A stretch of 26,168 nt of DNA, from NCBI GenBank assembly GCA_018399865.1, contig JAGYNL010000262.1, positions 1 through 26,168 of the forward strand, read 5' to 3'. Each line of letters starts with the position of its first letter. Within the stretch, counting starts at the first letter, position 1. The notes under the pieces are model-generated. The model had not been told where the DNA came from, did no database searches, and was given only the letters and a program-made list of their open reading frames with translations. This stretch comes from Candidatus Bipolaricaulota bacterium (GTDB taxonomy: Bacteria; Bipolaricaulota; Bipolaricaulia; UBA7950; UBA9294). The position numbers were made by a program, and so were the translations under genes. Of this stretch, positions 1-17,763 are shown in pieces.

Positions 1-282
1 TGAGTAATTTGGCCCTACCTTTGGCAGGCTTTCTACCTGCTGTGGATTGTCTGGTGATTCTGCTACCGCTACTAATCGGTCAATTCCTCCCAAATCGATA
101 ACGATTTCTGTATATAAGGGAATGCCTGCAATAATGACCCTAGTTGGCTGACTGTCAATGGTAATCTCCAATCCTCTGTCGTCAATCAGCGCGACAGGGA
201 AGCTCTGTGCTATGACCACAGATCCCCATAATGCCACTACGACTACAGCAGCCAATAATTCTTTTAAGTGTTTCTTTTGCAT
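1..282 (-). CDS. Periplasmic binding protein of an ABC importer for cobalamin/siderophore (BtuF-like), N-terminal 94 residues only
   Basis: The reverse strand reads open from an ATG at 282 to the window edge, so the gene is truncated by the window, not broken. A signal peptide (KK then a hydrophobic run ending near residue 25, AQS) is followed by the start of a Peripla_BP_2 domain: FPVALIDDRGLEI, then QPTRVIIAG and a TEIVIDLGGIDRLVAVA stretch ending LPKVG. This order (D-x-x-G-R/L, P-x-R-I, LG, vVG) is that of BtuF/FhuD/FecB proteins. There is no lipobox cysteine. An AGGAGGAG site lies 11 nt before the ATG. It sits 192 nt downstream of the corrinoid adenosyltransferase on the same strand, so cobalamin is the likeliest ligand; an iron-siderophore ligand cannot be excluded from 94 residues. 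Confidence 0.8.
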   Translation of the reverse strand, partial: MQKKHLKELLAAVVVVALWGSVVIAQSFPVALIDDRGLEITIDSQPTRVIIAGIPLYTEIVIDLGGIDRLVAVAESPDNPQQVESLPKVGPNYS

Positions 283-474
283 AGTACCACTTTCTCCTCC
301 TACCCGCGAGCACTTGCTGGCCCTTGCTTGGCCACTCTCGTGAGAGAAACTCCTACTCTCAACGTCCGATAAATCCGAACGCAAAAACGCGCACATTCTA
401 CCGTATCGCATTTACGTCCGCTACATTTTTGCCTGACATCATTACTGACAGAATCCCCGCGATTGCGTCATCCC
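283..474. other. 192-nt gap between the adenosyltransferase and the BtuF-like gene
   Basis: No ORF is convincing here. On the minus strand I see no clear -35/-10 pair, no strong terminator and no recognisable cobalamin riboswitch core. A small self-complementary CTCTC-GT-GAGAG lies near 342-353. Whether the binding protein has its own promoter or is read from the upstream operon is open. Confidence 0.4.
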
Positions 475-1008
475 TTAGTACTCTATGCCAACGCGCGCGT
501 CAATCCCGCGATCGAACGGGTGCTTGACCGCGTCAATCCTACTGACAAGATCAGCGTGAGCAAGCAACTCCTCCGGTGCGCCACGACCGGTTAAGATAAC
601 CTCTATGGTCCTGTTCTTCTCATTAAGCAACTCCAGAAGTTCAGTAACTGTCACCATTCCCAATTCGATAACGACGTTCATCTCATCGAGGATAACTACG
701 TCATAGACTCCTGATGTCAGCACCTCCCTTGCTCGGGTGATGCCGCGCGTTACGATCGCGCGGTCCTCATCTGTTACCCTACCCGGCACAACAAAGTGAG
801 AAGGGCCAAATTGCTCCAGATCAAAGCCGCTTATGTGGCCGATGGCACGCACCTCCCCATAGGTGGGGAAGTTATCGCCTCCCTTCAGAAACTGGATCAT
901 GTGTACATGCATTCCCTGACCAACAGCCCGTATGCCTGCTCCGATTGCAGCGGTGGTTTTCCCTTTTCCGCCGCCAGTGTAGACCTGTACCAGGCCCATC
1001 TTTTCCAT
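475..1008 (-). CDS. cobO: Corrinoid (cob(I)alamin) adenosyltransferase, CobA/CobO/BtuR family
   Basis: Transfers the adenosyl group of ATP to Co(I) corrinoids, giving adenosylcobalamin in the cytoplasm. About 177 residues, usual for the CobA/BtuR family. The P-loop GGGKGKTT is at residues 12-19, a Walker-B-like DVVILDEMN lies in the middle, and the family signature LTGRGAPEELLAHADLVS is near the C-terminus. I place the start at the ATG at 1008: it lies one base after the TAG of the upstream mutase gene and 12 nt after a GGAGG site inside that gene's end. A TTG at 1020 would have no room for the ribosome site; an ATG at 999 is possible. Tight coupling to the B12-dependent mutase indicates that it makes or repairs that enzyme's cofactor. 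Confidence 0.92.
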   Translation of the reverse strand: MEKMGLVQVYTGGGKGKTTAAIGAGIRAVGQGMHVHMIQFLKGGDNFPTYGEVRAIGHISGFDLEQFGPSHFVVPGRVTDEDRAIVTRGITRAREVLTSGVYDVVILDEMNVVIELGMVTVTELLELLNEKNRTIEVILTGRGAPEELLAHADLVSRIDAVKHPFDRGIDARVGIEY

Positions 1009-1009
1009 G

Positions 1010-4000
1010 CTATAGGTCAACCTCCACTCGCCCCACTTTTAATGGACGAAGGTATTTCTTAAGCATGCGGACGGCGCGCTCTGGGTCAACGCGGCCGTAT
1101 AATCCGCCAACTGTTGACAGAACATAGTGGGCATCTAATAGCACTTGCCCATTGGGTCGCAGCACCGTGTACTCATCCTTGTTGAACAGCACGCCCTTGG
1201 CAATAAGTTCCAGTTCCTCTAGCTGCTCCTTCGTACCCTCACGAGCTTTGCCGTATATCGTGCCCCCAACCATGAGAATGTCTGTTGACTGAGAGAAGAA
1301 GTTAACACCGTATTGTAGGAAATACACATCCGTTTCGCGTACATATCCAACGTTGTTCTTTGTCGTGATCCGCATGACCTCATTAGTCATAAACGCTCGT
1401 ACCCAATTCTCCTCTCTGCTCTTCGGGAGTTCGTGGGGGTTCTCATGTACCCACTTAATGTAGCTACCAAGGTCGATCTCGTATCCCTCCGCGTTCTTTT
1501 TCACGAATCTGACAAACGTATCCTCTGTAGAAAGGGCGATGTTTTTAAATCTCTCTGAAAACAGCGAATTCAGCTCCTTCTGCATCTCTCCGCTCCTGTA
1601 GCGATCGATCTCCACCAGGTTCTCCGCGTTATACGCCATTCCATACTTACCCTCCACACGGCGATAAGCGAGCGGCATATTCGGAGTTTTCAGGATACTT
1701 CGCTTGTTTCGTTTCTCGGCAACTTCCCACGGATACACATAAAGAGGATTATCAGGCACATTTGCATAGAAGTCAGTAGTCGCCCCACCTACGTCAAGGC
1801 ATACAAGCGGACCGATTCCTTCCTCCTGCCCATACCCCCTGACCAGCAGATTGACCCCGAGGAACGCGGCCCGCGGAGTAGGAATAAACGGCGCATCCAT
1901 ATACTGTTCTGCTACATCGAAGCCCTTTCCGCGTATCACAACCGTCTGAAAGAGGTCTCGTATTGTCTCGTTTACGGTTTCGATATTGTATTGGTTTACT
2001 TCGGGCATGATGTTGCCGACCACCCGGATATCAATCCCCTTTTCTGTAAATAGCTTCTCGACATCATCGGCAATATCCTGGTTTCCTGCGTAGATGATCG
2101 GTACACCGTACTTGGTATGAGTAACGTATTTAGCCGTGTCAGCAAGTATCTGTGCGTTGTGCAGCTGTGTCTTAGCTTCCCCTCCATCGTCCGTCCCTCC
2201 GGAGATAAGAATGATCTCTGGTTCATCGTGTTCGTAGATCCTGCGACCTAGTTCCTCAGAGAGCTTGCCATAATAGCGTCCCACTATCTTTGCTCCCGCA
2301 GTCAACGCTGCGGTATCTGCCGCGAATCCGCTCTCAGCATCGGTCAGGGCCACAGTTACCATTTTCAGGCCACCCTTGGCACTCGAGCATGGCAGCTTCA
2401 GATCAAATTTACTTAAAGAGTGCTCCAAGGGCTCCCAGTTGCCAGCTATCTCTACCTCTTCAGCCACGCCAAGCCCACTGGCAAGGGAGTAGCGTATGTC
2501 TTCGAGAACAGTTGGCACGTACCGAAGCGTTACTTCTTCGTTCTTGGTATTGAACGTAACCATTTTTGTGAACGTACTCCCGAAGTCCACGGCAAGAACG
2601 TTCAAGTTATCTAGATCTCTTACTCCTGCCTTGCGACGAAACGCGTCTACTTGCGCGTCACTGATCCGCTCTTCCACCTCGGTTATTGTTGACTGCTCAT
2701 TACCGAATAAGATATCCGAATAGAAATACCAGGGGAACTTCTCCCGTACGCGCCTCACACGCTCAAACTCATCCTTCACTGGCTTTCCATCGAATAACTT
2801 GATCTTGCACATCCCGCCGGTGTTGTCCGTTTTGCACTTGCCGGCCATTTCGTAACGCTTGTCAATTACTGTTACTTGTGGAGCCTGAAATAGACCGGTC
2901 TGCAACGCCAGATCGAGGCTATCAGGACTGACCATCTCGCACCTCCCGGTGCGATAGTTGGACTCATCGACAAGCTCAAGGAGCAACTCCTCGTAGTTCA
3001 TTTTGCGGGCCTGGACATCCTCTCGTTTTGCTGCTTCCTCAGAGGAAACTGCATAATCAAAGAAGTTGTCCAGTGTGACGTTACCCTGGTATCCACCGAT
3101 TAGAGCAAGATGGAAGATGTTGTACATAGCTCCCTTCTTCAGCTCTTCCTTGCGAGCTATCACCTTGGGGTCATTCCATATGTCCGGCTGCGGTCCTCGC
3201 TGAAACTCCTCGAATACCTGTTTTGTTATCTCACAGCTCTCAACAATATCCGCTGTCTTCGCTTCGTGGTGCGCCTCTGATATGCTAACGACGTGCACGA
3301 TATCTGGCTCCATAAACATCTGCCAATAGGTTGTCATCCCCAGATGTCCCTGCGCTCTGTCCAGGTTAGGAGGAAAACTGGATAGTCCACCTCTTGTCTC
3401 GCGAATGATGTTGTAGTCGAAATGACGAGTAAGTGGCTCTATGAGCTCGTAGGCTGCGCGCATCTTCGCGAGATCGTAAAGCGGATATATCTCGGGTGGT
3501 AGATCAAACATGAGTTGCATGACGTAGTTCTTGATACCCATTTTCAGCGCCACAACACCGCTCAACACGTGATCAGCAACATAGAGATCATCCGTGCAGT
3601 TTCGTAGCTGCCACTGATGGGGATCGTTTATCTCAAGTGGTTTATCAATGGATGCCCACCATTTCATAACGTTGAAGTGTTCAACAAATCCGTCCCATAT
3701 AGATAGTGGGCCGCGCCCATCCAATTGGTTATAGTAGAAGATAGGCACGGCGGGGAACGCCATGTTAAGGGTTTCCTCAAAAATTTTAGCTACTTCCGCT
3801 AGCTCATCTGTCCCAGAGTAGATTCGCGACAATGGGAAATTTCCACGTTTGGTCGCTTCCTTAAGCGCCCTCAGATCTTCTTTTCCTCCTATTGGTGCTC
3901 CACCCTGCCCCCGCGGGTGTTCCTCCGGATCTTCTTCCCCTCGCACGAACTTGGCCAAGAACGCTTGTGAGGGTTGGTCAGGTGCCAGCGAGACAATCTC

Positions 4001-4690
4001 AAGGCACTTCGCATCGCTCAGCTCCTCCACACCCTTGATTGTAGGTTCAAGCGAATCGGCCGCGATTCCTATGTGCGCCCGAATTACTGGGCGACTTTCC
4101 CTTGCCCTTACTTGCTTGATTCGCTCGAGGAGATCGTCCGACCAGGTCAAATCCGCGGCCTTCTTCCCTGGAATACGTTTAGCAAACTGCTCTAGCTCGT
4201 CCATTGTGACGTAGTCATCCACAATGATCTCAAAGAAGCCCTTGAATCCTGGTCGCTTCTGGTACTCAGCAGCGACCTTCGCAAGATCGAAATGCCTATC
4301 ATCAACAGGAGTAAACCGATCTGGCTGCATTATCTGGCCAGTGATGGCTCTCACTAGGTTTGCTGCTGGACGAGTCCCCCCAAACGCATATCTTATTCCT
4401 GTTGACTTCTGATCAAGACCGCGTTCAAGGGCTTTCTCGATCAGCTCGGTGATAATTTCATCGACGTGCAGATCGCCCAGCCGATACGAGATCGCTACGA
4501 CCTCGGGATTTGACTCCTGTATTTTGTTAAGAAGCTCGTCGATAGTGACTGCTGGGCCGAGTTTTATCGCGATGTAGTTCACTCCTAGATCCTCAAGCCA
4601 CTCTGCAAACTTCTCCGTTCCGAGCGTGTGCACGCAAGGGTCCATAGATCCAGCTAAAACACGTCTTTTCTTTCGTATCTGGTCGCTCAT
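1010..4690 (-). CDS. Single-chain B12-dependent mutase (B12-binding domain + glutamate-mutase-like barrel) fused to a GlmL/MutL-type ATPase reactivase
   Basis: A 1226-residue fusion. Residues about 10-150 form a Rossmann-like B12-binding domain with the His-x-x-Gly of the base-off corrinoid motif (H21, G24), an AISYRLGD strand end and a FGG turn. Residues about 155-690 are a large catalytic region. Its MKWWASIDKP, ALKMGIKNYVMQL and SISEAHHEAK segments show faint likeness, from memory, to glutamate mutase E chain, so the substrate is not assigned. Residues about 695-1226 are a GlmL/MutL (MutL_GlmL, ASKHA ATPase) domain: phosphate-1 loop AVDFGSTFTK near 700, ILISGGTDDGG near 830, phosphate-2 LDVGGATTDF near 967, ILMVGGT near the end. 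GlmL proteins are thought to chaperone or reactivate B12 mutases. The ATG at 4690 is preceded by GGAGG at 9 nt; an upstream TTG at 4723 is less likely. Gap of 25 nt to the dehydrogenase; the corrinoid adenosyltransferase follows by one base. Confidence 0.85.
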   Translation of the reverse strand: MSDQIRKKRRVLAGSMDPCVHTLGTEKFAEWLEDLGVNYIAIKLGPAVTIDELLNKIQESNPEVVAISYRLGDLHVDEIITELIEKALERGLDQKSTGIRYAFGGTRPAANLVRAITGQIMQPDRFTPVDDRHFDLAKVAAEYQKRPGFKGFFEIIVDDYVTMDELEQFAKRIPGKKAADLTWSDDLLERIKQVRARESRPVIRAHIGIAADSLEPTIKGVEELSDAKCLEIVSLAPDQPSQAFLAKFVRGEEDPEEHPRGQGGAPIGGKEDLRALKEATKRGNFPLSRIYSGTDELAEVAKIFEETLNMAFPAVPIFYYNQLDGRGPLSIWDGFVEHFNVMKWWASIDKPLEINDPHQWQLRNCTDDLYVADHVLSGVVALKMGIKNYVMQLMFDLPPEIYPLYDLAKMRAAYELIEPLTRHFDYNIIRETRGGLSSFPPNLDRAQGHLGMTTYWQMFMEPDIVHVVSISEAHHEAKTADIVESCEITKQVFEEFQRGPQPDIWNDPKVIARKEELKKGAMYNIFHLALIGGYQGNVTLDNFFDYAVSSEEAAKREDVQARKMNYEELLLELVDESNYRTGRCEMVSPDSLDLALQTGLFQAPQVTVIDKRYEMAGKCKTDNTGGMCKIKLFDGKPVKDEFERVRRVREKFPWYFYSDILFGNEQSTITEVEERISDAQVDAFRRKAGVRDLDNLNVLAVDFGSTFTKMVTFNTKNEEVTLRYVPTVLEDIRYSLASGLGVAEEVEIAGNWEPLEHSLSKFDLKLPCSSAKGGLKMVTVALTDAESGFAADTAALTAGAKIVGRYYGKLSEELGRRIYEHDEPEIILISGGTDDGGEAKTQLHNAQILADTAKYVTHTKYGVPIIYAGNQDIADDVEKLFTEKGIDIRVVGNIMPEVNQYNIETVNETIRDLFQTVVIRGKGFDVAEQYMDAPFIPTPRAAFLGVNLLVRGYGQEEGIGPLVCLDVGGATTDFYANVPDNPLYVYPWEVAEKRNKRSILKTPNMPLAYRRVEGKYGMAYNAENLVEIDRYRSGEMQKELNSLFSERFKNIALSTEDTFVRFVKKNAEGYEIDLGSYIKWVHENPHELPKSREENWVRAFMTNEVMRITTKNNVGYVRETDVYFLQYGVNFFSQSTDILMVGGTIYGKAREGTKEQLEELELIAKGVLFNKDEYTVLRPNGQVLLDAHYVLSTVGGLYGRVDPERAVRMLKKYLRPLKVGRVEVDL

Positions 4691-4715
4691 CTGTGCGTTC
4701 CTCCAGGCTCGACTT

Positions 4716-5900
4716 TCACTCAAATAGGCTTTCGATTGCCGTTATTCCATAGCGCTGAGGGGCGCGTGTCGTCATGATATCGCGCCCAACAAGCTCTCCT
4801 TCTGCTAGGTATTCCCTACCTATCCATGCACTTGTGTTAATAATCACCTCATCGATGGTTGGGGTCTTCACGCCGACTAACGATCCAATACCTCTTGTTA
4901 CTACCAAGCCAAATGGGAGATCCTCGCTAAGATAACGGGCTTGAGTATCGATTACATACCCTTGCTCTTGCTCTTTTACCGGCGCCTTTAACGTCTGATA
5001 TCCCTTATTAGTTTGGAATTTCCTCATCAGGTTGGAGGTATCGGAGATTTCCCCAGCATATGTCTGACTAAGCCAGCGTGATAGATGAACTACATTTGGC
5101 ATTACCACGCCTGGCAGTACCCGTTCCACTGCATCCCTTATATCAAGCACCTCTTCGCTCATCGCGGACAGAATGGAGGCGGTCTTGGTGTCAACACTCC
5201 CGTAGAACAGGGGTACGTCAGATTCAGATGAGTACATACGCTGGAGCCGCTCGGAGAACACCCCGTACATAATGCCCGGATGAATTAGCTGCCCCGTGTT
5301 TGTTAGGCTGAGCTCTACCATAGACCCGTAAGGTATGATCTCCATTCCAAATAGCTCGGAGAATAGTCCTGCTTTGCTGGAAGCCTCCTCTGCCGGCATC
5401 GAGGCTACCCCTAGTCTTTTCTTAGTACCGTAGATTACAACCGAACGTCCGAACTCCTCAGTGCGGCATGCCCAGGGCAATGTCTGGAAACCAACGAGTA
5501 TAGCTCTATGCTGCTCGGCCGCCGCAAATATCTCCCTCGCCTGGAATTCCAGACCGCTACGGGCCGGGAGGACTGCTAAAATCCTCCCGCCAATATGGGG
5601 TGCAAGCTGGGAAAGGACAGCTTCATGAGCAAATGCTGGCACAGCGATGATAATGACCGGTGAATCTGCGGCCGTCCGAGCATCTCCTGTTACGCGTATC
5701 CGTTCAGAGGATACTGCATGTATCTGTCCATTCATATGTACATTAAATTGCGAATGTGTGTCGATAGCATCCTCGAATCGCTTCCTCTCATTTTCAATAG
5801 GCAAATACAAGCGTACATGGCTTTGCTGATCATGAAGAAGAATCGTACCAATCAAGGCATGTGCACCGTTTCCTCCACCACACACGGTAACCCAGTTCAT
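4716..5900 (-). CDS. NAD(P)-dependent opine dehydrogenase family (octopine/nopaline dehydrogenase-like)
   Basis: 394 residues. An N-terminal Rossmann fold begins at once with VCGGGNGAHA (residues 6-15), the GxGxxA dinucleotide loop of the octopine/nopaline dehydrogenase family. IIIAVPAFAHE (83-93) matches the second nucleotide-contact strand, and LTNTGQLIHPGIM (199-211) carries the Asn and His placed where the family has its catalytic His. The C-terminal half is the all-helical Octopine_DH domain. Family members reversibly couple an amino acid to a 2-oxo acid by NAD(P)H reduction of the imine; others act on related imine or hydroxy-acid substrates, so the exact reaction is open. Start ATG overlaps the upstream stop as ATGA, with GGAAG at 6 nt. 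Translational coupling to the glutamate-cyclase-like gene and to the mutase places it in the same pathway. Confidence 0.85.
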   Translation of the reverse strand: MNWVTVCGGGNGAHALIGTILLHDQQSHVRLYLPIENERKRFEDAIDTHSQFNVHMNGQIHAVSSERIRVTGDARTAADSPVIIIAVPAFAHEAVLSQLAPHIGGRILAVLPARSGLEFQAREIFAAAEQHRAILVGFQTLPWACRTEEFGRSVVIYGTKKRLGVASMPAEEASSKAGLFSELFGMEIIPYGSMVELSLTNTGQLIHPGIMYGVFSERLQRMYSSESDVPLFYGSVDTKTASILSAMSEEVLDIRDAVERVLPGVVMPNVVHLSRWLSQTYAGEISDTSNLMRKFQTNKGYQTLKAPVKEQEQGYVIDTQARYLSEDLPFGLVVTRGIGSLVGVKTPTIDEVIINTSAWIGREYLAEGELVGRDIMTTRAPQRYGITAIESLFE

Positions 5901-6931
5901 ACACTGCTTCCTTCTGACGCTCGCTCAACAATCGAACGCATGATCCTCACCAGTGCGAGGTGGACACCCATGGGAATACCATCGACGCTTCCACCTACGT
6001 AGCCAGTTACTCCATCAATAAATCCAGCTCGCGCACATCCTTCAAGTAATCTTCTTTCTATATCTTCGTTGTGAAAGACATCGATCCGCTTCGACAGCAC
6101 ACCCAAGCAAGCAGCGATCCCATAAGCCCCCCAGTTGGAGACCGCCGCAACTACCAGCGCATCCGTCGATACAGAAGGCGCAAACCCAGCCAGACCCGTA
6201 TCCCCAAAGCCTTCAGCTAACACCCTCGCGGCCTCGGCATGAATAACCCCCATTCCTACCTCGTTGCCACCATCGCCAATTCCAACCGTGAATCTGCCTC
6301 GCTTGCGGGCTTCGATTACTAACTGGTCAACCTTTGCGCTAGTAGCTGTAACGTTCTCGCCACGACATGAGTAAATGAGGCCTTTCTCGTTCATTCCACC
6401 TTTCTCGACAACGATTACTGCGCCTGGTGAGTACAGGTTGAACAAGCGTTTCGCCTCACGCTCTGCATCCTCGAGCGAAACAGGAAACGGCAACACAGCG
6501 GCTGGATGTATTGGTCCCTTGCAATTGCGGGTTAGCAGAACAGACTCTGCTGACAGCAACTTGAACCCGGCGCAACCAACAATCTTGCTGAATGCTGGTA
6601 CAAGTTGTTGCTCGACAAGAAAGATAGGAATAGTGCCGAATGCCTGATGAATCGCTCGCGCAACAATGGTTGCCCCCGGTGGACCATCGGTCTCGGCAAT
6701 CGTCGGATCCACAGCCGTGCGATCAGGCCAACCCGTGCTGATAAACACGAACTTCTCATTTGTAAGCGAGCGGTGAAGCGACTGAGCCGCTGTCAGAACG
6801 AGAGGTTCCCCAGCCCGAGCTCGTGCAGCCTGGTACAACCTGTTAACAACCCCTCTACCGCTGACATCAACTGTTATCAGCCGGTCGATGGCCTCAGAAC
6901 ACGATAGTATTGAGCTTTCAGTGCTTGCCAC
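5897..6931 (-). CDS. D-glutamate cyclase-like protein (DUF4392)
   Basis: 344 residues, DUF4392 family, whose animal member (C-terminal part of DGLUCY) converts D-glutamate to 5-oxo-D-proline. The most telling segment is VGIGDGGNEVGMG near residues 214-226, the conserved glycine-rich GDGGNE motif. FISTGWP near 63-70 and ETDGPPGA near 80-87 are also typical of the family, as is the C-terminal GVTGYVGGSVDGIPMG. No signal peptide, so cytoplasmic. GTG start at 6931, preceded by GAGGGGG at 4 nt; the gtR stop is 9 nt upstream. Its partners are an opine dehydrogenase and a B12 mutase, which suggests a role on glutamate, its lactam or an analogue. It could instead act on another D-amino acid or acidic substrate. 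Confidence 0.8.
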   Translation of the reverse strand: MASTESSILSCSEAIDRLITVDVSGRGVVNRLYQAARARAGEPLVLTAAQSLHRSLTNEKFVFISTGWPDRTAVDPTIAETDGPPGATIVARAIHQAFGTIPIFLVEQQLVPAFSKIVGCAGFKLLSAESVLLTRNCKGPIHPAAVLPFPVSLEDAEREAKRLFNLYSPGAVIVVEKGGMNEKGLIYSCRGENVTATSAKVDQLVIEARKRGRFTVGIGDGGNEVGMGVIHAEAARVLAEGFGDTGLAGFAPSVSTDALVVAAVSNWGAYGIAACLGVLSKRIDVFHNEDIERRLLEGCARAGFIDGVTGYVGGSVDGIPMGVHLALVRIMRSIVERASEGSSV

Positions 6932-6940
6932 AAAGCCCCC

Positions 6941-7660
6941 TCATAGGTATTCGCGTACTTCATCTACCGTTCCGGAGAAATGCTCCTTCATTTCCCGGAT
7001 TGCCTTATCCACATTCCTTTCTCTTATTGCCAACAAAATCCTTTCATGACGAGCTGCATACTTCTTTATATGATCGGGATCAGAGACATAGCGCTGTATC
7101 GATTCCTGCCACAGCTTCTTCTCTTCACTAAGCAGCAGATACTTAAGGAGTTTCTCTACCACGCCGTTATGAGTGGAAGCAGCGACAAGCAGATGAAACT
7201 CTCTGTTTGACTGGAAATAGCGCGCCAGGTCGTTAGTTGAGACAGCATCCTTCATACGGTCCAGCGCTTGCTCCAGCATTAAAACATCTTCTTCGGTCGC
7301 CTGCTTGACAGCAAGCCTAATTATGCCTTCTTCAAGGAGGCGCCGCGCTTGCATCACCTCAAACGGGCTCTCACTCTCCTCGAGTACCGACATCGTATCA
7401 CTCACCATCTTGCTAACAGGAGCAGCACTCTTTACGTACGTACCATCCCCGGTTCGAATTTCGACAATTCCCGCAAGCTGTAGCGCGCTAAGCGCTTCAC
7501 GAACGGGCGGGCGGCTAATCCCAAGCTGGCGCGCTATTTCGCGCTCGGAGGGCAGCTTCGCGCCGTCGGGGTACTCCTGTGACCGAATTTGCTTCAATAC
7601 CCACTCAGCAACCAACGCGCTCTTCTTCGGCTGAGACTCGGGCCATATATTGGCTTCCAC
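6941..7660 (-). CDS. GntR-family transcriptional regulator, FadR subfamily (FCD domain)
   Basis: 239 residues. A winged helix-turn-helix at about 15-78 contains LPSEREIARQLGISRPPVREAL, unmistakable GntR, and the wing TGDGTYV. An all-helical FCD ligand domain follows (about 98-225), with REFHLLV and KEHF histidines that fit the usual metal-coordinating pocket. FCD regulators mostly sense small organic or amino acids and act as repressors relieved by the ligand. GTG start at 7660 with AAGGAAGG 5-6 nt upstream. Its own promoter at 7699-7726 carries a palindrome at 7677-7698 that recurs at the importer promoter at 12732-12753, so it very likely controls itself and both operons. Confidence 0.93.
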   Translation of the reverse strand: MEANIWPESQPKKSALVAEWVLKQIRSQEYPDGAKLPSEREIARQLGISRPPVREALSALQLAGIVEIRTGDGTYVKSAAPVSKMVSDTMSVLEESESPFEVMQARRLLEEGIIRLAVKQATEEDVLMLEQALDRMKDAVSTNDLARYFQSNREFHLLVAASTHNGVVEKLLKYLLLSEEKKLWQESIQRYVSDPDHIKKYAARHERILLAIRERNVDKAIREMKEHFSGTVDEVREYL

Positions 7661-7676
7661 ACCGACCTTCCTTTCA

Positions 7677-7698
7677 TGGGTATTACTGGTATTACCAG
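7677..7698. promoter_or_regulatory. Putative GntR operator at the gntR promoter
   Basis: A 22-bp imperfect palindrome with half-sites GGTATTAC and GTATTACC around a central TG. It matches the 22-bp site at 12732-12753 (read on the minus strand) at 18 of 22 positions by my hand alignment. It begins one base downstream of the -10 hexamer and so covers the transcription start, where bound repressor would block RNA polymerase. Confidence 0.7.
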
Positions 7699-7726
7699 AT
7701 TATACTCCCTACCTAGCCGTTGTCAA
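7699..7726 (-). promoter_or_regulatory. Sigma-70-type promoter of gntR and the mutase operon
   Basis: On the minus strand TTGACA (7721-7726) is separated by 16 nt from TATAAT (7699-7704): both hexamers match consensus. It begins only 14 nt after the stop of the upstream hydrolase gene, leaving no room for a terminator, so read-through from the importer operon is likely as well. Confidence 0.8.
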
Positions 7727-7740
7727 CACCTCAATCACCA

Positions 7741-8829
7741 CTAGCACGTAATCTCCTGGTAATGTGCCATACACGGATAACCGCCAGCAAACACTACTCT
7801 ACCACGATTGGGCATGTAAAAGACGGTTGAAATCGTACGACTTGGCGGGTCCACTTCCTCATGCCGACACAGCGAATCCAGATCATCACCGTGATACGAT
7901 AACACACTTTTCCCGCCAGCGAGGCCAGAAACCCCAAGCGACAATAATTCCTGCAATTTACGATACCGTCGCTCGCTTGTACCCTTGAACCTGCGGGTAT
8001 TAACGTCAACGAACGCTGTTTGCAACACTGGATCAGTGAAATGGTTCGTGTTCACAAGCACGCCACCGGTACACTTTCGTACTGCACACAGCTGGTTACC
8101 CAGTTCAGCCACACCAAGGTTGCCACGCTTGTCAGCAAGAATCAAGTTGCCCCTGCCCATCAGTGGGCGCTCTAACACAAGCTCCAGCGCTTCTTCCACA
8201 CTGCTACAACTCGTTAGAATCTCATGTTCAAGGGCATAGCGGGGAAGGCCAACGCCGATATCCTCTGACACAACATGCGTGTCGGCGACAGCAAGCCCGA
8301 GCGCATTCATGCCACTACTGTTAATACCGGGCACACCGTAGGTTGTCATGCCCGTGTACATATACCCTCGCTCTGGGTGAACGCGAATCATTACCTGCCA
8401 AGGTCCATACTTGGAATCTGAATCGCGATTCTTTCCAACGATCGCGCCGTCGGATGTCTTCGAGACCGCAAAAGTACTGCAACCTTCACTGCTTCTACAG
8501 TGCATAAGATCACGAAAGAAAGCGCCAATGCCCAAAAGAAGCAGTTCCTCATGATCGATAGATAGCTGCTCAGCCATAGCATCCAACCATTGGGTCATTT
8601 TCTCGGCTTCCGTCTCTAAAAATGCACGTAGCTCTGACAATGTATGGTCGCTATACGATTCGAGTCTCCGAAATTCCTGCGCCTCATGCTTCACAAATGA
8701 ACGAAACTGCTGTAAGCGGCCCTCTGTTGCGCAAAGAGCCCGCCCCATAGCCTGGCCAATATCTACTGGTTGCCCTGATATATCTAGTACATCAATCTTA
8801 AACACACTGGCCTTAGTATCATTGATCAT
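7741..8829 (-). CDS. C45-family (acyl-CoA:6-aminopenicillanate acyltransferase-like) Ntn hydrolase
   Basis: 362 residues of the AAT/C45 family of self-cleaving N-terminal-nucleophile enzymes. The nucleophile is C117 in EGCSTFAV, preceded by about 116 residues that would be the cleaved pro-segment. IVGKNRDSD (an Asn-Arg-Asp motif following the nucleophile), VPGINSSGMNALGLAV and LVNTNHF match the family core. Members cleave or transfer amide-linked acyl groups (isopenicillin N acyltransferase, several N-acyl-amino-acid and peptide hydrolases). No signal peptide, so it acts on imported material. It lies 13 nt after the permease gene and is the last gene of the importer operon, so I infer that it cleaves the imported substrate. 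ATG at 8829 has only a weak ribosome site, as expected for a coupled gene. Confidence 0.85.
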   Translation of the reverse strand: MINDTKASVFKIDVLDISGQPVDIGQAMGRALCATEGRLQQFRSFVKHEAQEFRRLESYSDHTLSELRAFLETEAEKMTQWLDAMAEQLSIDHEELLLLGIGAFFRDLMHCRSSEGCSTFAVSKTSDGAIVGKNRDSDSKYGPWQVMIRVHPERGYMYTGMTTYGVPGINSSGMNALGLAVADTHVVSEDIGVGLPRYALEHEILTSCSSVEEALELVLERPLMGRGNLILADKRGNLGVAELGNQLCAVRKCTGGVLVNTNHFTDPVLQTAFVDVNTRRFKGTSERRYRKLQELLSLGVSGLAGGKSVLSYHGDDLDSLCRHEEVDPPSRTISTVFYMPNRGRVVFAGGYPCMAHYQEITC

Positions 8830-8842
8830 ATAAAGGAACCTG

Positions 8843-9706
8843 CTATTTCTTCAGCCTCGCCAACTTCGGATCGAAAGCATCCCTCAGTCCTTGCCCCATC
8901 AGATTCACGCCCATTACAAGCAGGAAGATGGATAGTCCCGGGAAGGTTGTGATCCACCAAGCTGTAGAGATGTAATCACGCCCCGAAGCTACCATGCTGC
9001 CCCAAGTAGCAGTCGGAGGCTGAACCCCTAATCCAAGGAAGCTAAGCGATGCCTCCATAAGGATTACCCAAGCAACACGAAGCGATGCAACAACAATCAC
9101 CGATGCCATTACGTTCGGCAATAGCGAACGAATAAGGATATGCATATGGCTTGCCCCCACTGCTCGAGCGGCCTCAACATACATCTCAGCCTTAGCAACA
9201 AGAACCTCACCCCTGATTACTCGACAAGGCGTCACCCATTCCTTATACACAAGGGCGAGTATGATATTTTGTATGCCTGGACCAAGAACAGCCATAATCG
9301 CTAAAGCGAAAATAAGGTAAGGAAAAGCGAGCAGGGTATCCACGATCCTCTGGATAACCGTATCAATCTTGCCGCCGTAATACCCGGAGACAAGCCCAGC
9401 AAGCACGCCTGCGCTGCTTGCAATAGCCACGACAACCACCCCAATGAAGATGGACACCCTCGCACCGTATACAATCCGACTGAGCAAGTCGCGCCCGAGG
9501 CTATCAGTACCCAACACGTGTTTGCTGCTTCCACCATCTACCCAACTTGGCGGCCGCAATCGCTCCAATAGGTTACCCTTGTTTGGGTCATGAGGGGCAA
9601 TCATAGGAGCAAAAAGGGCCATAAATATAAAACCTAGTGTTACAAACAGCCCAACCACAGCGGCCCTGTTCCGTCTGTAAAGCTTCCAGAATCTCCTAAG
9701 ACTCAT
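8843..9706 (-). CDS. Peptide/opine-type ABC importer permease, DppC-like
   Basis: 287 residues. An N-terminal OppC_N segment (RFWKLYRRNRAAVVG, then the first membrane helix and MIAPHDPN) and a BPD_transp_1 domain with about five further membrane helices. The ATPase-docking EAA loop is VEAARAVGASHMHILIRSLLPN (first residues near 179). ATG start with GGAAGG 8 nt upstream; 27 nt from the DppB-like gene. Forms the inner-membrane channel with the DppB-like partner. Neither operon in this window contains the two ATPase genes (DppD/DppF type) such a transporter needs. Confidence 0.92.
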   Translation of the reverse strand: MSLRRFWKLYRRNRAAVVGLFVTLGFIFMALFAPMIAPHDPNKGNLLERLRPPSWVDGGSSKHVLGTDSLGRDLLSRIVYGARVSIFIGVVVVAIASSAGVLAGLVSGYYGGKIDTVIQRIVDTLLAFPYLIFALAIMAVLGPGIQNIILALVYKEWVTPCRVIRGEVLVAKAEMYVEAARAVGASHMHILIRSLLPNVMASVIVVASLRVAWVILMEASLSFLGLGVQPPTATWGSMVASGRDYISTAWWITTFPGLSIFLLVMGVNLMGQGLRDAFDPKLARLKK

Positions 9707-9733
9707 ATGATCTACCTTCCGAGATATAGCACA

Positions 9734-10744
9734 TCAAAGTCTGACCTTTGGATTGAGCAATGTGTATAACAGATCAGCAATGAAGTTCATAGCTACGTAA
9801 GTCAACGCATAGACCAATACGGCTCCTTGTACCAGCGGGTAGTCGCGCGTGTATATCGCATTGATTACAAGTCTCCCCAATCCCGGCCAGCCAAATACGG
9901 TTTCCACAATCATGTTGCCACCAAGCAACACACCAAAATTGAGGGTTACAACAGTCACTGTTGGTACAAGGGCATTACGCAGGGCATGCTTAAGTATGAC
10001 TCTCTTCTGTGATAGTCCCTTTGCCCACGCAGTACGTACGTAGTCTTGAGACAGAACCTCCAGCATGCTGGACCGAGTCACCCGCATTGTCAGTGCCGCC
10101 ATATAGGCTCCCAGTGTAATTGCGGGAAGGAGCAAATGACGCAGCACATCAACCAATGCCCTCCAGTTGCCAGTTATGACTGCATCAATCAGGAAAAAGT
10201 TGGTAATAGGCTCTAGCCCACTGGCGTAGCTTACTCGGCCCGCAACTGGAAGGACTTTGAGCTTGACAGCGAACACTATGATCAACAGCAGGCCAAGCCA
10301 GAAGCCAGGCATGGATACGCCAGCCAGGGCCGTCACAGTACTGATGTTATCCAGAATAGAATATCGCTTGATCGATGAGATAATTCCAACTGGGATCGCT
10401 ATTGCAAGCGAGATGAGTATCGCAAGGATGGTTAGCTCAAACGTGGCGGGAAGGCGACTAGAGATCAACTCAGTCACCGGCGCCCGTTGGATAATTGACC
10501 GACCAAAATCACCATGGAGAATCCCTGTAAGAAAGCGTGCGTACTGGCTGTACAAAGGAAGATCTAGCCCAAGTTCATGCCTCAGCCGGGCGATTTCCTC
10601 GTTGCTGGAGATACTACCCTTTCCCATCATAATCTCCACAGGGTCACCGGGGGTGAGATGCATTATCACGAAGACTATTAGTGTAATTCCTATAAATACT
10701 GGGATAATCTGAAGGATACGCCTGACAATATAAGCTGTACCCAA
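9734..10744 (-). CDS. Peptide/opine-type ABC importer permease, DppB-like
   Basis: 336 residues if started at the TTG at 10744. This start has AGGAG at 6 nt and gives the usual DppB beginning (GTAYIVRRILQIIPVF, then the HLTPGDPVE periplasmic motif). A longer frame reaches a TTG at 10822 but would encode a 26-residue extension running through a strong hairpin, and has no ribosome site. Six membrane helices; EAA loop RTAWAKGLSQKRVILKHALRNAL. Pairs with the DppC-like subunit. Confidence 0.9.
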   Translation of the reverse strand: MGTAYIVRRILQIIPVFIGITLIVFVIMHLTPGDPVEIMMGKGSISSNEEIARLRHELGLDLPLYSQYARFLTGILHGDFGRSIIQRAPVTELISSRLPATFELTILAILISLAIAIPVGIISSIKRYSILDNISTVTALAGVSMPGFWLGLLLIIVFAVKLKVLPVAGRVSYASGLEPITNFFLIDAVITGNWRALVDVLRHLLLPAITLGAYMAALTMRVTRSSMLEVLSQDYVRTAWAKGLSQKRVILKHALRNALVPTVTVVTLNFGVLLGGNMIVETVFGWPGLGRLVINAIYTRDYPLVQGAVLVYALTYVAMNFIADLLYTLLNPKVRL

Positions 10745-10775
10745 TGACGACTCCTTATCTGCTGCACTATTAAGT

Positions 10776-10810
10776 GAAGCCCCGCTAGGCACGTGCCCTT
10801 GCGGGGCTTC
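10776..10810 (-). promoter_or_regulatory. Strong hairpin between the binding-protein and permease genes
   Basis: Perfect 10-bp arms (10776-10785 with 10801-10810, sequence GAAGCCCCGC and its complement) enclose a second palindrome, GGCACGTGCC, at 10788-10797. On the transcript this is a very stable stem in the 87-nt gap after the binding-protein gene. No T-run follows, so it is not a standard terminator. As in malE-malF type operons it probably protects the upstream mRNA, so the binding protein is made in excess over the permeases. Confidence 0.7.
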
Positions 10811-10831
10811 TTCTAGCTTCAACTGGTCTTT

Positions 10832-12361
10832 CTACTTCGCAACCGATACGTCATGCAAATTTATACGGCCATCTGGGCTTGGGCTCCAGTTTTGCACGCG
10901 TTTGGCCTTGCCGTAGATCTCCTGCGTCACATATCCCCAGACCATCGGGCACTCCTCGTACACTATCTTCTGTCCCTCAATGAAGCAATGAAGTCGCTCT
11001 TGTGAGTCGAGCGTAATTGTGGACAGACTGAACAGGAGATCAAGGACCTTGTTAGAGTAACCGGTGTAGTTGCCGCGTTCACCCGCCCCGAGCTTCGGGA
11101 TGAATATACCCATCGGATCCATGCTGCCGTTACCCCAATCCTGGAGCCACATAGCCCGCTTCCCTGCAAGGAGTTCTGGTAACAGCACGCCCCACTCCCA
11201 TACCTGCACGGAGGCATCGATCCCTACTTCGCGAAGCATCTGCGCGTACGCCTCTGCTACATCCCTCTGAAAGTCCTCCACATCAATGACTACAGAGAAC
11301 CCGCCCGTGTAGCCTGCCTGTTCAAGTAAGTCTTTGGCCTTTGTCGGATCGTATGGGTACGGCGCCAGATCCGCGTAGCCAATGGCATTAGGTGAAAGGA
11401 TTGTCGGTATTCGTGTTGCCAGACCAGAGTACATAACCTCAACGATCTGGCTCATATTAATGGCGTAGTTCATCGCCTGGCGGACACGAACATCATCGAA
11501 CGGAGCTGCGTTTACATTCATGCCGATAAAGTAACTACGGGTGCCATTGCACATAGCAACCTCTGAATTGGCATCCGCCTCGATCTGGCCAATCAGATCA
11601 GCGGGGATGTCTGTAATAATGTCAACCTCCCCTGCCTGCAGCGCCGCTATTCGGCTTGAGGTCTCAGGGATAACCTTAAAGATCACGGTGGTAATTTGCG
11701 CGGGGCTGACTGGCGCTATACCAGGCGCGCCCCCGTAGTAGTCATCAAAGCGTTCCATCACGATCTGCGACCCTTTGTCCCAGCGAACGAATTTGAAGGG
11801 ACCTGTGCCCATTGGATGCTCCGCGAGATAGTCATCACCAACTTCCTCTACGTAATGCTTCGCTACCATCTCTTGAAATGGCAAGAAGGCAAGCAAATGA
11901 GGCATAGGGGAATCAAGAATCAGTTTGACCGTGTATTCATCGACAAGCTCGGCACCAGTCACGGAGCCAAGCAAGCTCTTCCGCGGCGATGTTTCCCCGT
12001 TGATCATCCCCTCCTTTACGAGCCTGTCAATTGTGAACTTCACGTCCTCTGCGGTGAATGGTTCACCATCGTGCCACTTCACATCCTGGCGAATGTGGAA
12101 TATCCACTCGGTGGTAGAAAGCTGTTCCCAGGATTCAGCAAGTTCAGCCTCAAGCTCCATGCCTGTTGTGCGAGTCAACAGACCGTCATACATATTGCGA
12201 ATCACCGTCTCTGTCACACGATCGCGGTGATTAGCCGGATCGAGCGTAATCGCATCTTGATTAAGCCCAACGACGAGCGTGTCACCAGCCGCCCAACCCG
12301 CTATACCGATCACCAGCAACCAGCCAATAACAGCAACAATCACCAATTGTGTCTTACTCAT
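10832..12361 (-). CDS. Periplasmic substrate-binding protein of a family-5 (peptide/nickel/opine) ABC importer, DppA-like
   Basis: 509 residues, normal for SBP_bac_5. A signal peptide with a hydrophobic core spans about residues 6-25 and ends AGWAAGDT without a lipobox cysteine, so the mature protein should be free in the periplasm. Family features follow: LDPANHRD, VIRNMYDGL, LAESWEQLSTTEWIFHIRQDVKWHDGEPF split over 70-105, DVKFTID, and MGTGPFKFVRWDKGS near 185-200. The ATG at 12361 has GAGGAGG 7 nt upstream. First full-size gene of the importer operon. The ligand class (di/oligopeptide, opine, N-acyl amino acid) cannot be told from sequence; the following hydrolase argues for an amide-bonded compound. 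Confidence 0.93.
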   Translation of the reverse strand: MSKTQLVIVAVIGWLLVIGIAGWAAGDTLVVGLNQDAITLDPANHRDRVTETVIRNMYDGLLTRTTGMELEAELAESWEQLSTTEWIFHIRQDVKWHDGEPFTAEDVKFTIDRLVKEGMINGETSPRKSLLGSVTGAELVDEYTVKLILDSPMPHLLAFLPFQEMVAKHYVEEVGDDYLAEHPMGTGPFKFVRWDKGSQIVMERFDDYYGGAPGIAPVSPAQITTVIFKVIPETSSRIAALQAGEVDIITDIPADLIGQIEADANSEVAMCNGTRSYFIGMNVNAAPFDDVRVRQAMNYAINMSQIVEVMYSGLATRIPTILSPNAIGYADLAPYPYDPTKAKDLLEQAGYTGGFSVVIDVEDFQRDVAEAYAQMLREVGIDASVQVWEWGVLLPELLAGKRAMWLQDWGNGSMDPMGIFIPKLGAGERGNYTGYSNKVLDLLFSLSTITLDSQERLHCFIEGQKIVYEECPMVWGYVTQEIYGKAKRVQNWSPSPDGRINLHDVSVAK

Positions 12362-12451
12362 AAAACTACCTCCTCTTGATCTTGGTTCTCTTCTAGGCTT
12401 GCAGACGCATCCTATTTGCTTACTCGGCTATCCGCTATCACCTCCCCAGCC

Positions 12452-12480
12452 AAAAAATCGACAATCCCACAGGGATTGCC
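12452..12480 (-). terminator. Terminator-like hairpin in the leader of the importer operon
   Basis: On the minus strand CAATCCC-TGT-GGGATTG (12462-12478), extendable by a G-U and a G-C pair to 9 bp, is followed after GA by six T (12452-12457). It lies between the operator-controlled promoter and the binding-protein start, so it would act as an attenuator or end a short leader transcript. Three-base loop and moderate GC make it of middling strength. Confidence 0.5.
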
Positions 12481-12496
12481 AAAGCGCTATCTTGTG

Positions 12497-12712
12497 TTAA
12501 AAGCCAAAAAAGGACGTATAGATATAACTCCTAGGAAGAAAAACTACGGCTTTACTCCGCTGTTCTACCCGTAACCTGATGTTTTCATTGACTATCTGCT
12601 TGTGGCTTGCTTGTATCCAGAGTATGTGATACTGTAACGTGAGGGTAAGTATTAGCAACAGACTATGCCGGTATGAAGATACAAGTGCTTTGTCGCAATG
12701 CTCTGCTTTCAC
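12497..12712 (-). CDS. Possible 71-residue leader ORF of unknown function
   Basis: GTG at 12712 has an AGGAG 8 nt upstream and begins about 43 nt after the predicted transcription start; the stop lies 17 nt before the terminator-like hairpin. The product has a hydrophobic stretch (SLLLILTLTLQYHILWI, about residues 17-33) and a basic C-terminal half. I recognise no family. Composition does not clearly look coding, so it may be chance or a decayed gene; its placement between promoter and attenuator is the only reason to list it. Confidence 0.25.
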   Translation of the reverse strand: MKAEHCDKALVSSYRHSLLLILTLTLQYHILWIQASHKQIVNENIRLRVEQRSKAVVFLPRSYIYTSFFGF

Positions 12713-12731
12713 CTATAGCGCTCCTATTATA

Positions 12732-12753
12732 TTGGCAATACCAGTATTACCAA
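12732..12753. promoter_or_regulatory. Putative GntR operator at the importer promoter
   Basis: A 22-bp near-perfect inverted repeat, arms TTGGYAATAC and GTATTRCCAA around a central 2 bp (only two of eleven base-pair positions, besides the centre, break symmetry at most). It lies 7 nt downstream of the -10 hexamer, covering about +1 to +23. Shares 18 of 22 bases with the site at 7677-7698. Confidence 0.75.
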
Positions 12754-12760
12754 CAAAATC

Positions 12761-12789
12761 AGTATACCGAAATATGCTGCCACTGTCAA
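12761..12789 (-). promoter_or_regulatory. Sigma-70-type promoter of the importer operon
   Basis: On the minus strand TTGACA (12784-12789), a 17-nt spacer and TATACT (12761-12766). Transcription should start near 12754, giving a leader of about 390 nt to the binding-protein ATG that holds the operator, a small ORF and a terminator-like hairpin. Confidence 0.8.
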
Positions 12790-12972: not shown

Positions 12973-13470
12973 ATGAGCCAGAAACAAACAGTGACCAAGC
13001 AGATGAGCCACAAGTACAACAAGGAAACTGTGAAGGAAAAGGGTGAGATCGTGGATTCACTGATCGGGCTCACTGGATACAACCGTTCCTACGCTGCTCG
13101 GGTACTAAGAAACCGCAGTAAGCACAAGGTGCTGGGGCGAACACGGCGCGGTAAACATACCCTAACCCTGATTGAAGATGAGCGTACTAAGAGAAAAGCA
13201 CGGCGCAAACGGGCAGCAAAGTATAAAAACCAAGTGTTCGTTGCGTTGGTGGATATCCCGATCATCTGTGACTGGATATGCGGCAAGGGATTAGCTCCCT
13301 ACCTGGCTGAGATCATCCCTGTACTAGAACGTTTCCATAAATTGGATATTACAGATGAAGTAAGAGAAAAGCTTCTGACAATAAGTGCAGCTAGCATCGA
13401 TCAGTTACTTACTCCGGTGAGGAAGCGTTACCAGTTACGCGGAAGATCTCATAGCAAGCCGGGGAATTAG
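12973..13470 (+). pseudogene. Truncated IS transposase (integrase-type, N-terminal 165 residues)
   Basis: The frame starts with ATG and encodes a basic protein with a helix-turn-helix region including the SLIGLTGYNRSYAARVLR motif seen in clostridial and related integrase-domain IS transposases, then KYKNQVFVALVDIPIICDWI. Full-length relatives are about 400 residues or more and continue after the SxSKPG motif into the DDE catalytic core. Here the frame stops right after GRSHSKPGN, so the whole core is missing and the sequence passes into an alanine racemase remnant. Not active. The exact IS family is not certain. Confidence 0.75.
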
Positions 13471-14198: not shown

Positions 14199-15029
14199 TC
14201 AATCCTTCGGCTCGCGCTTTGTACGGTCGCCCCAGTTAAGCTTTTCCTGTAACAGCTCAAAGAAGGACGGAGCATTTGCCATTCGGATTAGTCTAGTGGG
14301 TGACGAAGCACGCTTCACAGTAAGCTTGGCATCGGATGGGAGGTCGAAAGCAAAGTCTCCATCAGCGTAGATGCTCACCTGTGTATGTGTACGAACTAAC
14401 AGAACCTCATTGGCCGGGAACATCACCGGCAGGATTCCCAGCTTGTGTACAGCGAGAGGGCTTGCCAGAATACACGCTGCTGGGGGAACAATCACAGGTC
14501 CACCTGCCGACAGATTGTACGCGGTGGACCCAGTCGCTGTAGATAGAATAAGTCCATCTCCAGGATAGCTTGCTACCACTCCCTCGCCCCACAGAAGCTC
14601 AAACTCACAGAAACGAAGTGCCGAAGTCCCTGTTACTACTATATCGTTTAGCACAGTCCCGCTGCCTGCCTGAGATGAGTATGACAGACGCATCCTTTCC
14701 TCAATGACAAACGAGTCTCGAAGAACTCCTTCTAGGGCGGTGGTAAGGGAAGGAGCCTTTACTTGTGTAAGGAAACCTAGGCTGCCTAGATTCGCTCCAA
14801 GAATTGGTATGTTAGAATTCTCGAATATCGAGGCAGCGCGAAGGACTGTTCCATCCCCTCCCAAAGCAACAACAAACGCCCCCTCTTCTTCGGAGAAGCC
14901 TGGACGATCAGGATCGACAAGTATGGTTTCGATATGCTTCAGTTGTGCCCATGCCTTTAGCACGGCAAGGGTCCGCAGCGCTCCCTTTTTAACAGTGTTA
15001 GCAACGATGTAAATCTTCCTAATATTCAT
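14199..15029 (-). CDS. nadK: NAD kinase
   Basis: 276 residues, normal length for bacterial PpnK/NadK. It phosphorylates NAD to NADP with ATP or polyphosphate. VALGGDGTVLRAA has the family GGDG at 57-60, followed by GANLGSLGFLT (78-88), the GDGLILSTATGSTAYNLSAGGP substrate-binding stretch near 155-175 and a basic C-terminus. ATG at 15029 with only a weak purine-rich site. It lies 24 nt after the permease gene on the same strand, so it is the fourth gene of the NitT/TauT-type importer operon, an unusual place for this housekeeping gene. Confidence 0.95.
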   Translation of the reverse strand: MNIRKIYIVANTVKKGALRTLAVLKAWAQLKHIETILVDPDRPGFSEEEGAFVVALGGDGTVLRAASIFENSNIPILGANLGSLGFLTQVKAPSLTTALEGVLRDSFVIEERMRLSYSSQAGSGTVLNDIVVTGTSALRFCEFELLWGEGVVASYPGDGLILSTATGSTAYNLSAGGPVIVPPAACILASPLAVHKLGILPVMFPANEVLLVRTHTQVSIYADGDFAFDLPSDAKLTVKRASSPTRLIRMANAPSFFELLQEKLNWGDRTKREPKD

Positions 15030-15053
15030 CTATTCTCGTCTTCTCACGGGCTT

Positions 15054-17643: not shown

Positions 17644-17750
17644 ATGATCAAAGCCAGGACCGGCTATCATTCTTCGTCATACCCCCGCACCTGCAACGAT
17701 GTCGCTAGCTTGCAGCACGACAATTCTTACTAAGAGAAAGCTTTGATCAT
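17644..17750. repeat. Nested inverted repeats in the divergent intergenic region
   Basis: ATGATCAAAGC at 17644-17654 is exactly complementary to GCTTTGATCAT at 17740-17750, 85 bp apart. Inside it CTGCAA (17691-17696) pairs with TTGCAG (17710-17715). The region separates the importer operon from the exporter genes and has no ORF. It may be a paired operator, a structured leader of the exporter mRNA or a mobile-element scar. Confidence 0.5.
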
Positions 17751-17763
17751 AGGATCTTTGGTA

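Follow-up and report, generated by a model that had tools for sequence, protein, structure and literature searches.

Which compound is handled by an opine-dehydrogenase-family enzyme that is encoded directly beside a B12 mutase, and do the two enzymes work together? This question is raised by a gene run in a 26,168-nucleotide stretch of DNA from Candidatus Bipolaricaulota bacterium (contig JAGYNL010000262.1; hereafter, the window). The run encodes ODH, an NAD(P) oxidoreductase of the opine dehydrogenase family (4716..5900, minus strand; Octopine_DH in Pfam), and MUT (1010..4690, minus strand), in which a B12-binding domain, a mutase TIM barrel and a MutL reactivase domain form one chain of 1226 amino acids. 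As described below, the core of the locus is the ODH-MUT pair rather than the whole list of families encoded around it. We consider it moderately likely that GntR represses this locus, that the locus takes up and breaks down an amide-linked amino-acid or opine-type compound, and that ODH and MUT act in it as a unit. Few radical mutases that use adenosylcobalamin (AdoCbl) are known, and new reactions of this kind have been notable. A sequence-only reading of the window had proposed a conserved set of five enzyme families that processes a glutamate-like compound under one regulator, with cofactor supply built into the locus. The shared regulator, the cofactor upkeep and the link between ODH and the B12 mutase were supported, whereas the five-family set and glutamate were not.

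Linkage of ODH and long-form MUT

MUT with the fused MutL domain is called the long form. Of the long-form loci, 17 could be judged, and in all 17 the gene directly upstream of MUT is ODH; they are the window, L001-L004, L006, L008, L009, L011-L015 and L028-L031, in which the contig covers the 5′ side. L005, which starts 36 bases before MUT, was left out, as were G007 (L007, L032) and G010 (L010, L033), in which ODH and MUT are at the ends of different contigs. In addition, one natural fusion (P0067) carries the ODH, B12-binding and MutL domains in a single chain of 1657 amino acids. Thus, an opine-dehydrogenase-family enzyme is tied to the B12 mutase, as had been proposed. A scan of a contig collection, which detects solely carriers of six exact peptides, gave 15 MUT loci, and whole-genome searches gave more. 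The MUT bearers of the contig scan are labelled as Bipolaricaulota, Acetothermia, Aerophobetes, Spirochaetales, Atribacteria/Atribacterota, Lokiarchaeota, Bacillota/Firmicutes, Desulfovibrio and Anaerolineaceae.

The pairing was also measured in genome samples of Bipolaricaulota, Atribacterota and Bacillota, which are the phyla of the genomes holding L009, L012 and L013, respectively. In the Atribacterota sample, MUT was present in 8 of 50 genomes and a close ODH in exactly those 8 (E 3.7e-90 to 5.7e-80); 22 other genomes had distant ODH matches alone (E 3.9e-24 or worse). Long-form MUT was found in 2 of 398 Bacillota genomes, and a close ODH in those 2 and in G480. In the Bipolaricaulota sample, 2 of 100 genomes had the long form, both already known. 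Across 16 loci, the MUT and ODH distances gave a Spearman coefficient of 0.53 with shared descent not subtracted, and 2 of 2000 permutations were as high. In G480 (L090:9162-15985), genes of a complete Opp/Dpp importer, both ATPases included, come directly after the close ODH, an arrangement that may show the ODH compound in a simpler setting.

When the co-occurrence of the five families was examined across genomes, only ODH and MUT were constant. DUF4392 is linked in seven long-form loci (window, L001, L002, L003, L009, L029 and L030); it was detected at any position in 9 of the 19 draft genomes that have MUT and was not found in the other 10. Close relatives of C45 and CobA occur within the gene run in the window, L001 and L009 only. 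DUF4392, C45 and CobA are lineage-specific additions. The contig of the L001 locus carries a second DUF4392 gene (G001:C25:2-730).

The short form and an orphan family of 2009

Weak glutamate-mutase matches beside ODH-like genes in Bacillota led us to a short form, MUT2. This protein has 549 amino acids with a B12-binding domain and a TIM barrel but without MutL, and is 34-37% identical to long-form MUT. A search with MUT2 matched 68 of 338 Bacillota genomes. Because G013 has the long form alone, the short form is present in 67 of the 338 sampled genomes, and the ODH-MUT kind is thus not rare. The short form of G120 is distant (36% identity). In a protein search with MUT2, 7,812 of 7,999 scored candidates had E<=0.001; the best 120 of these 7,812 were inspected, and their identity was at least 71%.

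The Bacillota search gave 71 places, two of which are the long form (G013, G224); the matches in G201 and G432 are each split into two pieces. ODH is directly upstream on the same strand at 63 of the 71 places, corresponding to 60 of the 67 short-form genomes (from two match lists). It is downstream of the short form in G142 and G190, and a reading of the wider flanks places ODH2 beside MUT2 in G333 too. Wide flanks were available for 48 loci, representing 48 of the 68 matched genomes. Among them, ODH2 is directly upstream in 44, directly downstream in L168 and in the same gene run in L151.

In 6 of the 48 loci, the short pair has a MutL gene of its own as a neighbour (L141, L152 and L165 by Pfam; L137, L148 and L151 by BLAST). 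In L152 and L165, MutL trails MUT2 by 2 and 4 bases, which is the domain order of the fused MUT. Therefore, the most plausible role of the fused MutL domain is as the reactivase of this mutase itself. The run in L151 (4876-10744) encodes ODH2, a Ddl-like ATP-grasp ligase, a 4HBT thioesterase-type protein, MutL and MUT2, and resembles a small biosynthetic operon. V-type ATPase genes are found after the short pair at 7 of the 48 loci, a position that we attribute to chance.

The pairing itself has been known since 2009. According to the available text of Zhang et al. (PMC2667541), a predicted B12 protein is "always adjacent" to pfam02317, and its function was left open. The family is described there with an N-terminal B12-binding domain, a TIM barrel and D-Ala-D-Ala-ligase-like and asparagine-synthase-like neighbours. 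Window MUT shares with it the B12-binding domain followed by the TIM barrel and the ODH neighbour, and the same ligase-like neighbours occur beside our short form. In contrast, window MUT is fused to MutL, is encoded in an import/hydrolase operon that has a GntR, and is part of a separate clade. The short form fits the 2009 family by description and neighbours, the 11 proteins of that paper being compared by description only. A later assignment of the reaction of the B12/pfam02317 pair was not found in open-licence literature. In the accessible part of PMC3751872, an octopine dehydrogenase gene appears in Thermoanaerobacter ethanol stress and is not linked to a mutase. Thus, the statement that the cluster has no known pathway name holds, but the B12/opine-dehydrogenase pair was already an orphan in the available text of Zhang et al. 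(PMC2667541). The MutL-fused form, the catabolic-looking setting, the operator and the active site are new here. The long form narrows the problem by combining a single chain with a reactivase, a fused dehydrogenase partner, conserved pockets, an operator and an import operon. These features make the old orphan directly testable, and the import operon suggests that the compound comes from outside the cell.

Gene run, candidate operators and proposed role

A Pfam profile scan of the 20 larger open reading frames (ORFs) of the window found all the families that had been named, on the minus strand and with short gaps or overlaps (spacings of 9, 27, 13, 80, 9, -4, -8, -11 and 63 bases). The run begins with a family 5 solute-binding protein of the peptide/opine/nickel type (SBP_bac_5, Pfam 1.5e-92; 10832..12361), followed by permeases of the DppB type (BPD_transp_1, 2.6e-42; 9734..10822) and the DppC type (BPD_transp_1, OppC_N; 8843..9706). 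An importer ATPase gene is absent within the gene run. Next is a C45-family Ntn hydrolase/acyltransferase, a presumed amide hydrolase (7741..8829; C45_proenzyme 155 bits, cut-off 85), with a GCS motif at residue 116. The GntR/FCD regulator (6941..7660, by Pfam) and a DUF4392/D-glutamate-cyclase-like protein (5897..6931; GLUCM-like_C, 226.7 bits) with the motifs ETDGPPGA and GDGGNEVGMG precede ODH and MUT. The -8 spacing before MUT stems from a TTG start. Because the ATG at 4690 has GGAGG upstream and the database copy P0001 has 1226 amino acids, we placed the start of MUT at this ATG (1010-4690), from which its residues are counted. MUT is followed by the corrinoid adenosyltransferase CobA/BtuR (475..1020; CobA_CobO_BtuR in Pfam), in which the P-loop is kept; with CobA and the MutL domain, cofactor maintenance is indeed built into the locus. 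The last ORF (1..411) is truncated where the window ends; what is present is the 5′ portion of a gene for a Peripla_BP_2-like binding protein (BtuF/FhuD type). It has no Pfam match of its own and clusters, by similarity only, with L009:691-1572, which is Peripla_BP_2. The nine-gene order from the solute-binding protein to CobA is repeated in L001 and L009.

Both operons of the window have a candidate GntR operator, also on the minus strand. Before the importer operon, P1 (TTGACA, 17 bases, TATACT; 12761..12789) is directly followed by O1 (12732..12753), a 10-2-10 near-palindrome with a matrix score of 27.7. Before gntR, P2 (TTGACA, 16 bases, TATAAT; 7699..7726) is directly followed by O2 (7677..7698; score 25.8). 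The operator has the form TTGGTAATAC-NN-GTATTACCAA. The loose promoter pattern is not significant by itself (7 found, 3.6 expected); therefore, P1 is taken as a promoter from its position next to the operator. The sites were first chosen by eye and by shared palindromes before both operons of the window, L001 and L009, and then tested. With a matrix from the L001 and L009 sites only, O1 and O2 were the two best sites in the window, and the maximum in 40 mononucleotide shuffles was 19.3. In the reciprocal tests, the matching sites ranked first and second in L009 (27.2 and 24.9; shuffles to 17.3) and in L001 (21.6 and 16.6; shuffles to 16.9), where the second site falls short of the top shuffle. 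No operator pair stands out across the 13 other MUT loci scanned. Because the near-palindrome is found at both promoters in three loci, a single GntR probably controls both operons, as had been suggested; separate regulators were not seen for the two operons of the window. GntR would act by repression rather than activation.

Importers and hydrolases recur around the pair. Within the available flanks, importers of the Opp/Dpp or TRAP type are near 14 of the 17 judgeable loci: Opp/Dpp-type genes in the window, L001, L003, L006, L008, L009, L013 and L028 and as ATPases in L031 (also in L032 and L033), and TRAP genes in L004, L011, L012, L029 and L030. Hydrolases are near 11 of the 17. They are C45 in the window, L001 and L009; AAT-like in L012 and, by cluster, L015; Peptidase_C26 in L008, L028 and, by cluster, L007, L013 and L033 (on the other strand in L007 and L008); amidohydrolase in L006, L033 and, by similarity, L031; and M20 or M81 in L003 and L031. 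An FCD-type GntR is encoded in the window, L001-L004, L009, L011, L012, L029 and L030, and a UTRA-type GntR in L008 and, by cluster, L013 and L028.

On the basis of this setting, we propose the following role. The Opp/Dpp-type importer would bring in an amide-linked or opine-type compound, and the C45 hydrolase (elsewhere Peptidase_C26, amidohydrolase or M20/M81-like proteins) would probably release it from the amide. With NAD(P), ODH would form or cleave a C-N bond that joins an amino acid to a keto acid; MUT would carry out an AdoCbl radical rearrangement of the same substrate. The MutL-type domain would serve as reactivase and CobA would supply AdoCbl. The direction of the whole would be catabolic. 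IcmF, an isobutyryl-CoA mutase fused to a GTPase chaperone, is likewise joined to its reactivator, but the reactivator of MUT is of the MutL type.

Several observations weigh against this proposal. The hydrolase type varies by lineage and some assignments are weak; for example, the AAT match in L012 is 27.8 bits (cut-off 23.2). The counts of importer, hydrolase and ligase neighbours are raw, with no chance rate alongside. In G480, an Opp importer adjoins the close ODH (E 3e-72) and long-form MUT is missing, so that ODH may work alone; L131 and L159 have MUT2 without ODH nearby. Furthermore, ATP-dependent amide ligases, not hydrolases, are beside the short pair or in a run with it in 12 of the 48 loci (Ddl-like in 8, three on the other strand; AsnB-like in 3, including L159 without ODH2; another ATP-grasp ligase in 1). 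Thus, ODH and MUT do not have a catabolic role in all organisms. Conceivably, some organisms incorporate one and the same unusual amino acid into an amide, from which others release and consume it.

Outside the gene run, the window contains, on the plus strand and ahead of the next genes, an ORF of 165 residues (12973-13470) without a Pfam match, which by eye resembles the start of a transposase remnant. An NAD-kinase-like gene and an NMT1/ABC ATPase/permease (Ssu-type) importer adjoin the described run (14199-17565, minus strand), and a pair of ABC exporter half-transporters are encoded at 17743-21598 (plus strand).

Active sites of ODH and MUT and the substrate

Opine dehydrogenases (PF02317) have a catalytic His-Asp dyad and an active-site Trp, according to the available text of PMC10787698. 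All 20 ODH proteins that adjoin MUT retain His212, Asp329, Arg324, Trp278 and Cys148 (numbering of Pecten maximus octopine dehydrogenase, 3c7a). In the octopine enzyme, Glu142 holds the guanidinium group, as stated in the accessible part of PMC2924402. Although the fold family and the catalytic residues are shared, Glu142 is replaced by Gln and Gln118 by Arg in 20 of 20 ODH. Among the short-form partners, Arg is at position 118 in 28 of 28 having a residue there, and Gln at 142 in 22 of 28. Because the dyad and Trp are kept and Glu142 and Gln118 are replaced, ODH looks like a working enzyme of the opine dehydrogenase type with a pocket not made for arginine. A rule that Met206 is always Asn was true in the alignment of 20 ODH; it failed in a larger one and was dropped.

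In MUT, the B12-binding Rossmann domain (4331..4666), with His21 as the cobalt ligand, precedes the TIM barrel and following part (2726..4147; predicted fold like glutamate mutase E) and the MutL/GlmL-type domain (1049..2599; PF13941, 5.8e-80, 269.7 bits, over the cut-off), all on the minus strand. The B12-binding Pfam match is 25.5 bits, below the cut-off of 32.1. The closest relatives are MUT of L001 (Candidatus Bipolaricaulota, 83% identical) and L009 (Acetothermia, 77%). Structural matches were judged from predicted models on the best 50 entries. Glutamate mutase E was the top match of both MUT forms, and KamD and OraE were next. MttB-type methyltransferase barrels were not among these 50, an absence to which we give no weight. 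The PF06368 (glutamate mutase E) model had no match in window MUT and matched some short forms. An hmmsearch of the Protein Data Bank with a MUT profile found corrinoid proteins and three weak unrelated matches, and nothing else. Comparing MUT with GlmE, OraE and KamD in HH-suite did not yield a usable alignment of the TIM barrel because the profiles were too uniform, and a home-made profile alignment, in which OraE scored over KamD and GlmE was near chance, contradicts the fold ranking. Therefore, we relied on the fold ranking and on MAFFT columns.

One alternative, which we consider unlikely, is a glutamate or D-glutamate mutase route: an imported amide or lactam is opened by C45 or DUF4392, MUT forms a methylaspartate-like product, and ODH deaminates or condenses it. 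The GlmE-type barrel and its top structural rank fit this idea, as does the MutL domain, which matches the NCBI GlmL equivalog model at 270 bits, below its cut-off of 475. The conserved Arg of ODH at the Gln118 position could take a carboxylate, and DUF4392 is linked in the seven loci listed above. DUF4392 had been noted to include D-glutamate cyclase; the GLUCM-like_C domain and the activity in mouse (available text of PMC5339696) agree with this, but a Thermococcus homologue is reported as a Mn-dependent phosphatase in the accessible part of PMC5132392, so the assignment is disputed. The active site of MUT argues against a glutamate substrate. R66, R100 and R149 form the arginine claw of glutamate mutase, and in three MAFFT alignments none of the 12 MUT rows has an Arg in the corresponding columns. 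The R66 and R100 columns and the Glu330/338/472 column were identical across all three runs, whereas the R149, E171 and Tyr177 columns shift, Tyr177 aligning with a MUT Tyr in one of the three. Moreover, MUT is one chain with an opine dehydrogenase, not methylaspartase, as partner: glutamate mutase E and methylaspartase had no matches in the 20 larger window ORFs, the latter in agreement with the sequence-only reading, and methylaspartase was over the cut-off in 1 of 19 MUT genomes, with 7 more weak matches below it. The absences of methylaspartase (18 of 19) and DUF4392 (10 of 19) are weak because most of these genomes are draft metagenome-assembled genomes. A dicarboxylate could still be accommodated, since the first barrel strands align poorly and MUT has invariant Arg residues of its own (R204, R289, R326, R363 and R433).

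We think it quite unlikely that import with amide cleavage and the ODH-MUT pair are two unrelated functions that share only a regulator and a neighbourhood. C45 and the importer type vary by lineage while ODH-MUT stays, as such an arrangement would predict. However, the same operator is at both promoters in three loci, and several phyla have importers/TRAP systems and hydrolases close to the pair.

A pyridoxal 5′-phosphate (PLP)-dependent system like ornithine 4,5- or lysine 5,6-aminomutase, with ODH in place of Ord/Kdd, is highly unlikely. The B12 domain of MUT is of the same type and aligns with OraE/KamE (with OraE also in the HH-suite run), KamD and OraE are the next structural matches, and OraE was preferred by the home-made profile. 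In the ornithine and lysine pathways too, an NAD(P) dehydrogenase is the neighbour gene of the mutase, a likeness to ODH. In contrast, the PLP-binding residues are missing from MUT. The Schiff-base Lys is Lys629 in OraE and Lys144 in KamE (accessible text of PMC3958899). At this position, 11 residues past the cobalt-ligand His, Lys is present in 6 of 6 OraE and 7 of 7 KamE, whereas all 53 long forms of MUT have Leu/Met and all 30 short forms have Ala. The RxxGQS motif for the PLP phosphate is found in 6 of 6 OraE, 12 of 16 KamD and 0 of 53 MUT. As judged from these aligned residues, the active site of MUT matches neither glutamate mutase nor the PLP aminomutases.

That MUT is a corrinoid methyltransferase-type protein instead of a radical mutase is very improbable: the nearest sequence matches of its B12 domain are methyltransferase corrinoid proteins, and MTTB genes occur in L003 and L004 (by cluster in L004), but the MutL reactivase, the mutase-type TIM barrel and the conserved Glu suit radical mutases.

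Returning to ODH and MUT as a unit, a more specific form of this proposal is a long shot. The two enzymes would be a PLP-free machine for moving amino groups, in which ODH oxidises an opine to a keto-acid imine that stands in for the PLP aldimine, so that the radical enzyme could dispense with PLP and its lysine. Organisms with the short form would make the rearranged amino acid and link it by a D-Ala-D-Ala-ligase-like or asparagine-synthase-like enzyme, and bearers of the long form would import, cut and eat the linked product.

With no obvious corrinoid partner adjoining, the MTTB-family methyltransferase genes of the long-form loci are at L003:5522-6946 and, by cluster, L004:12416-13873.

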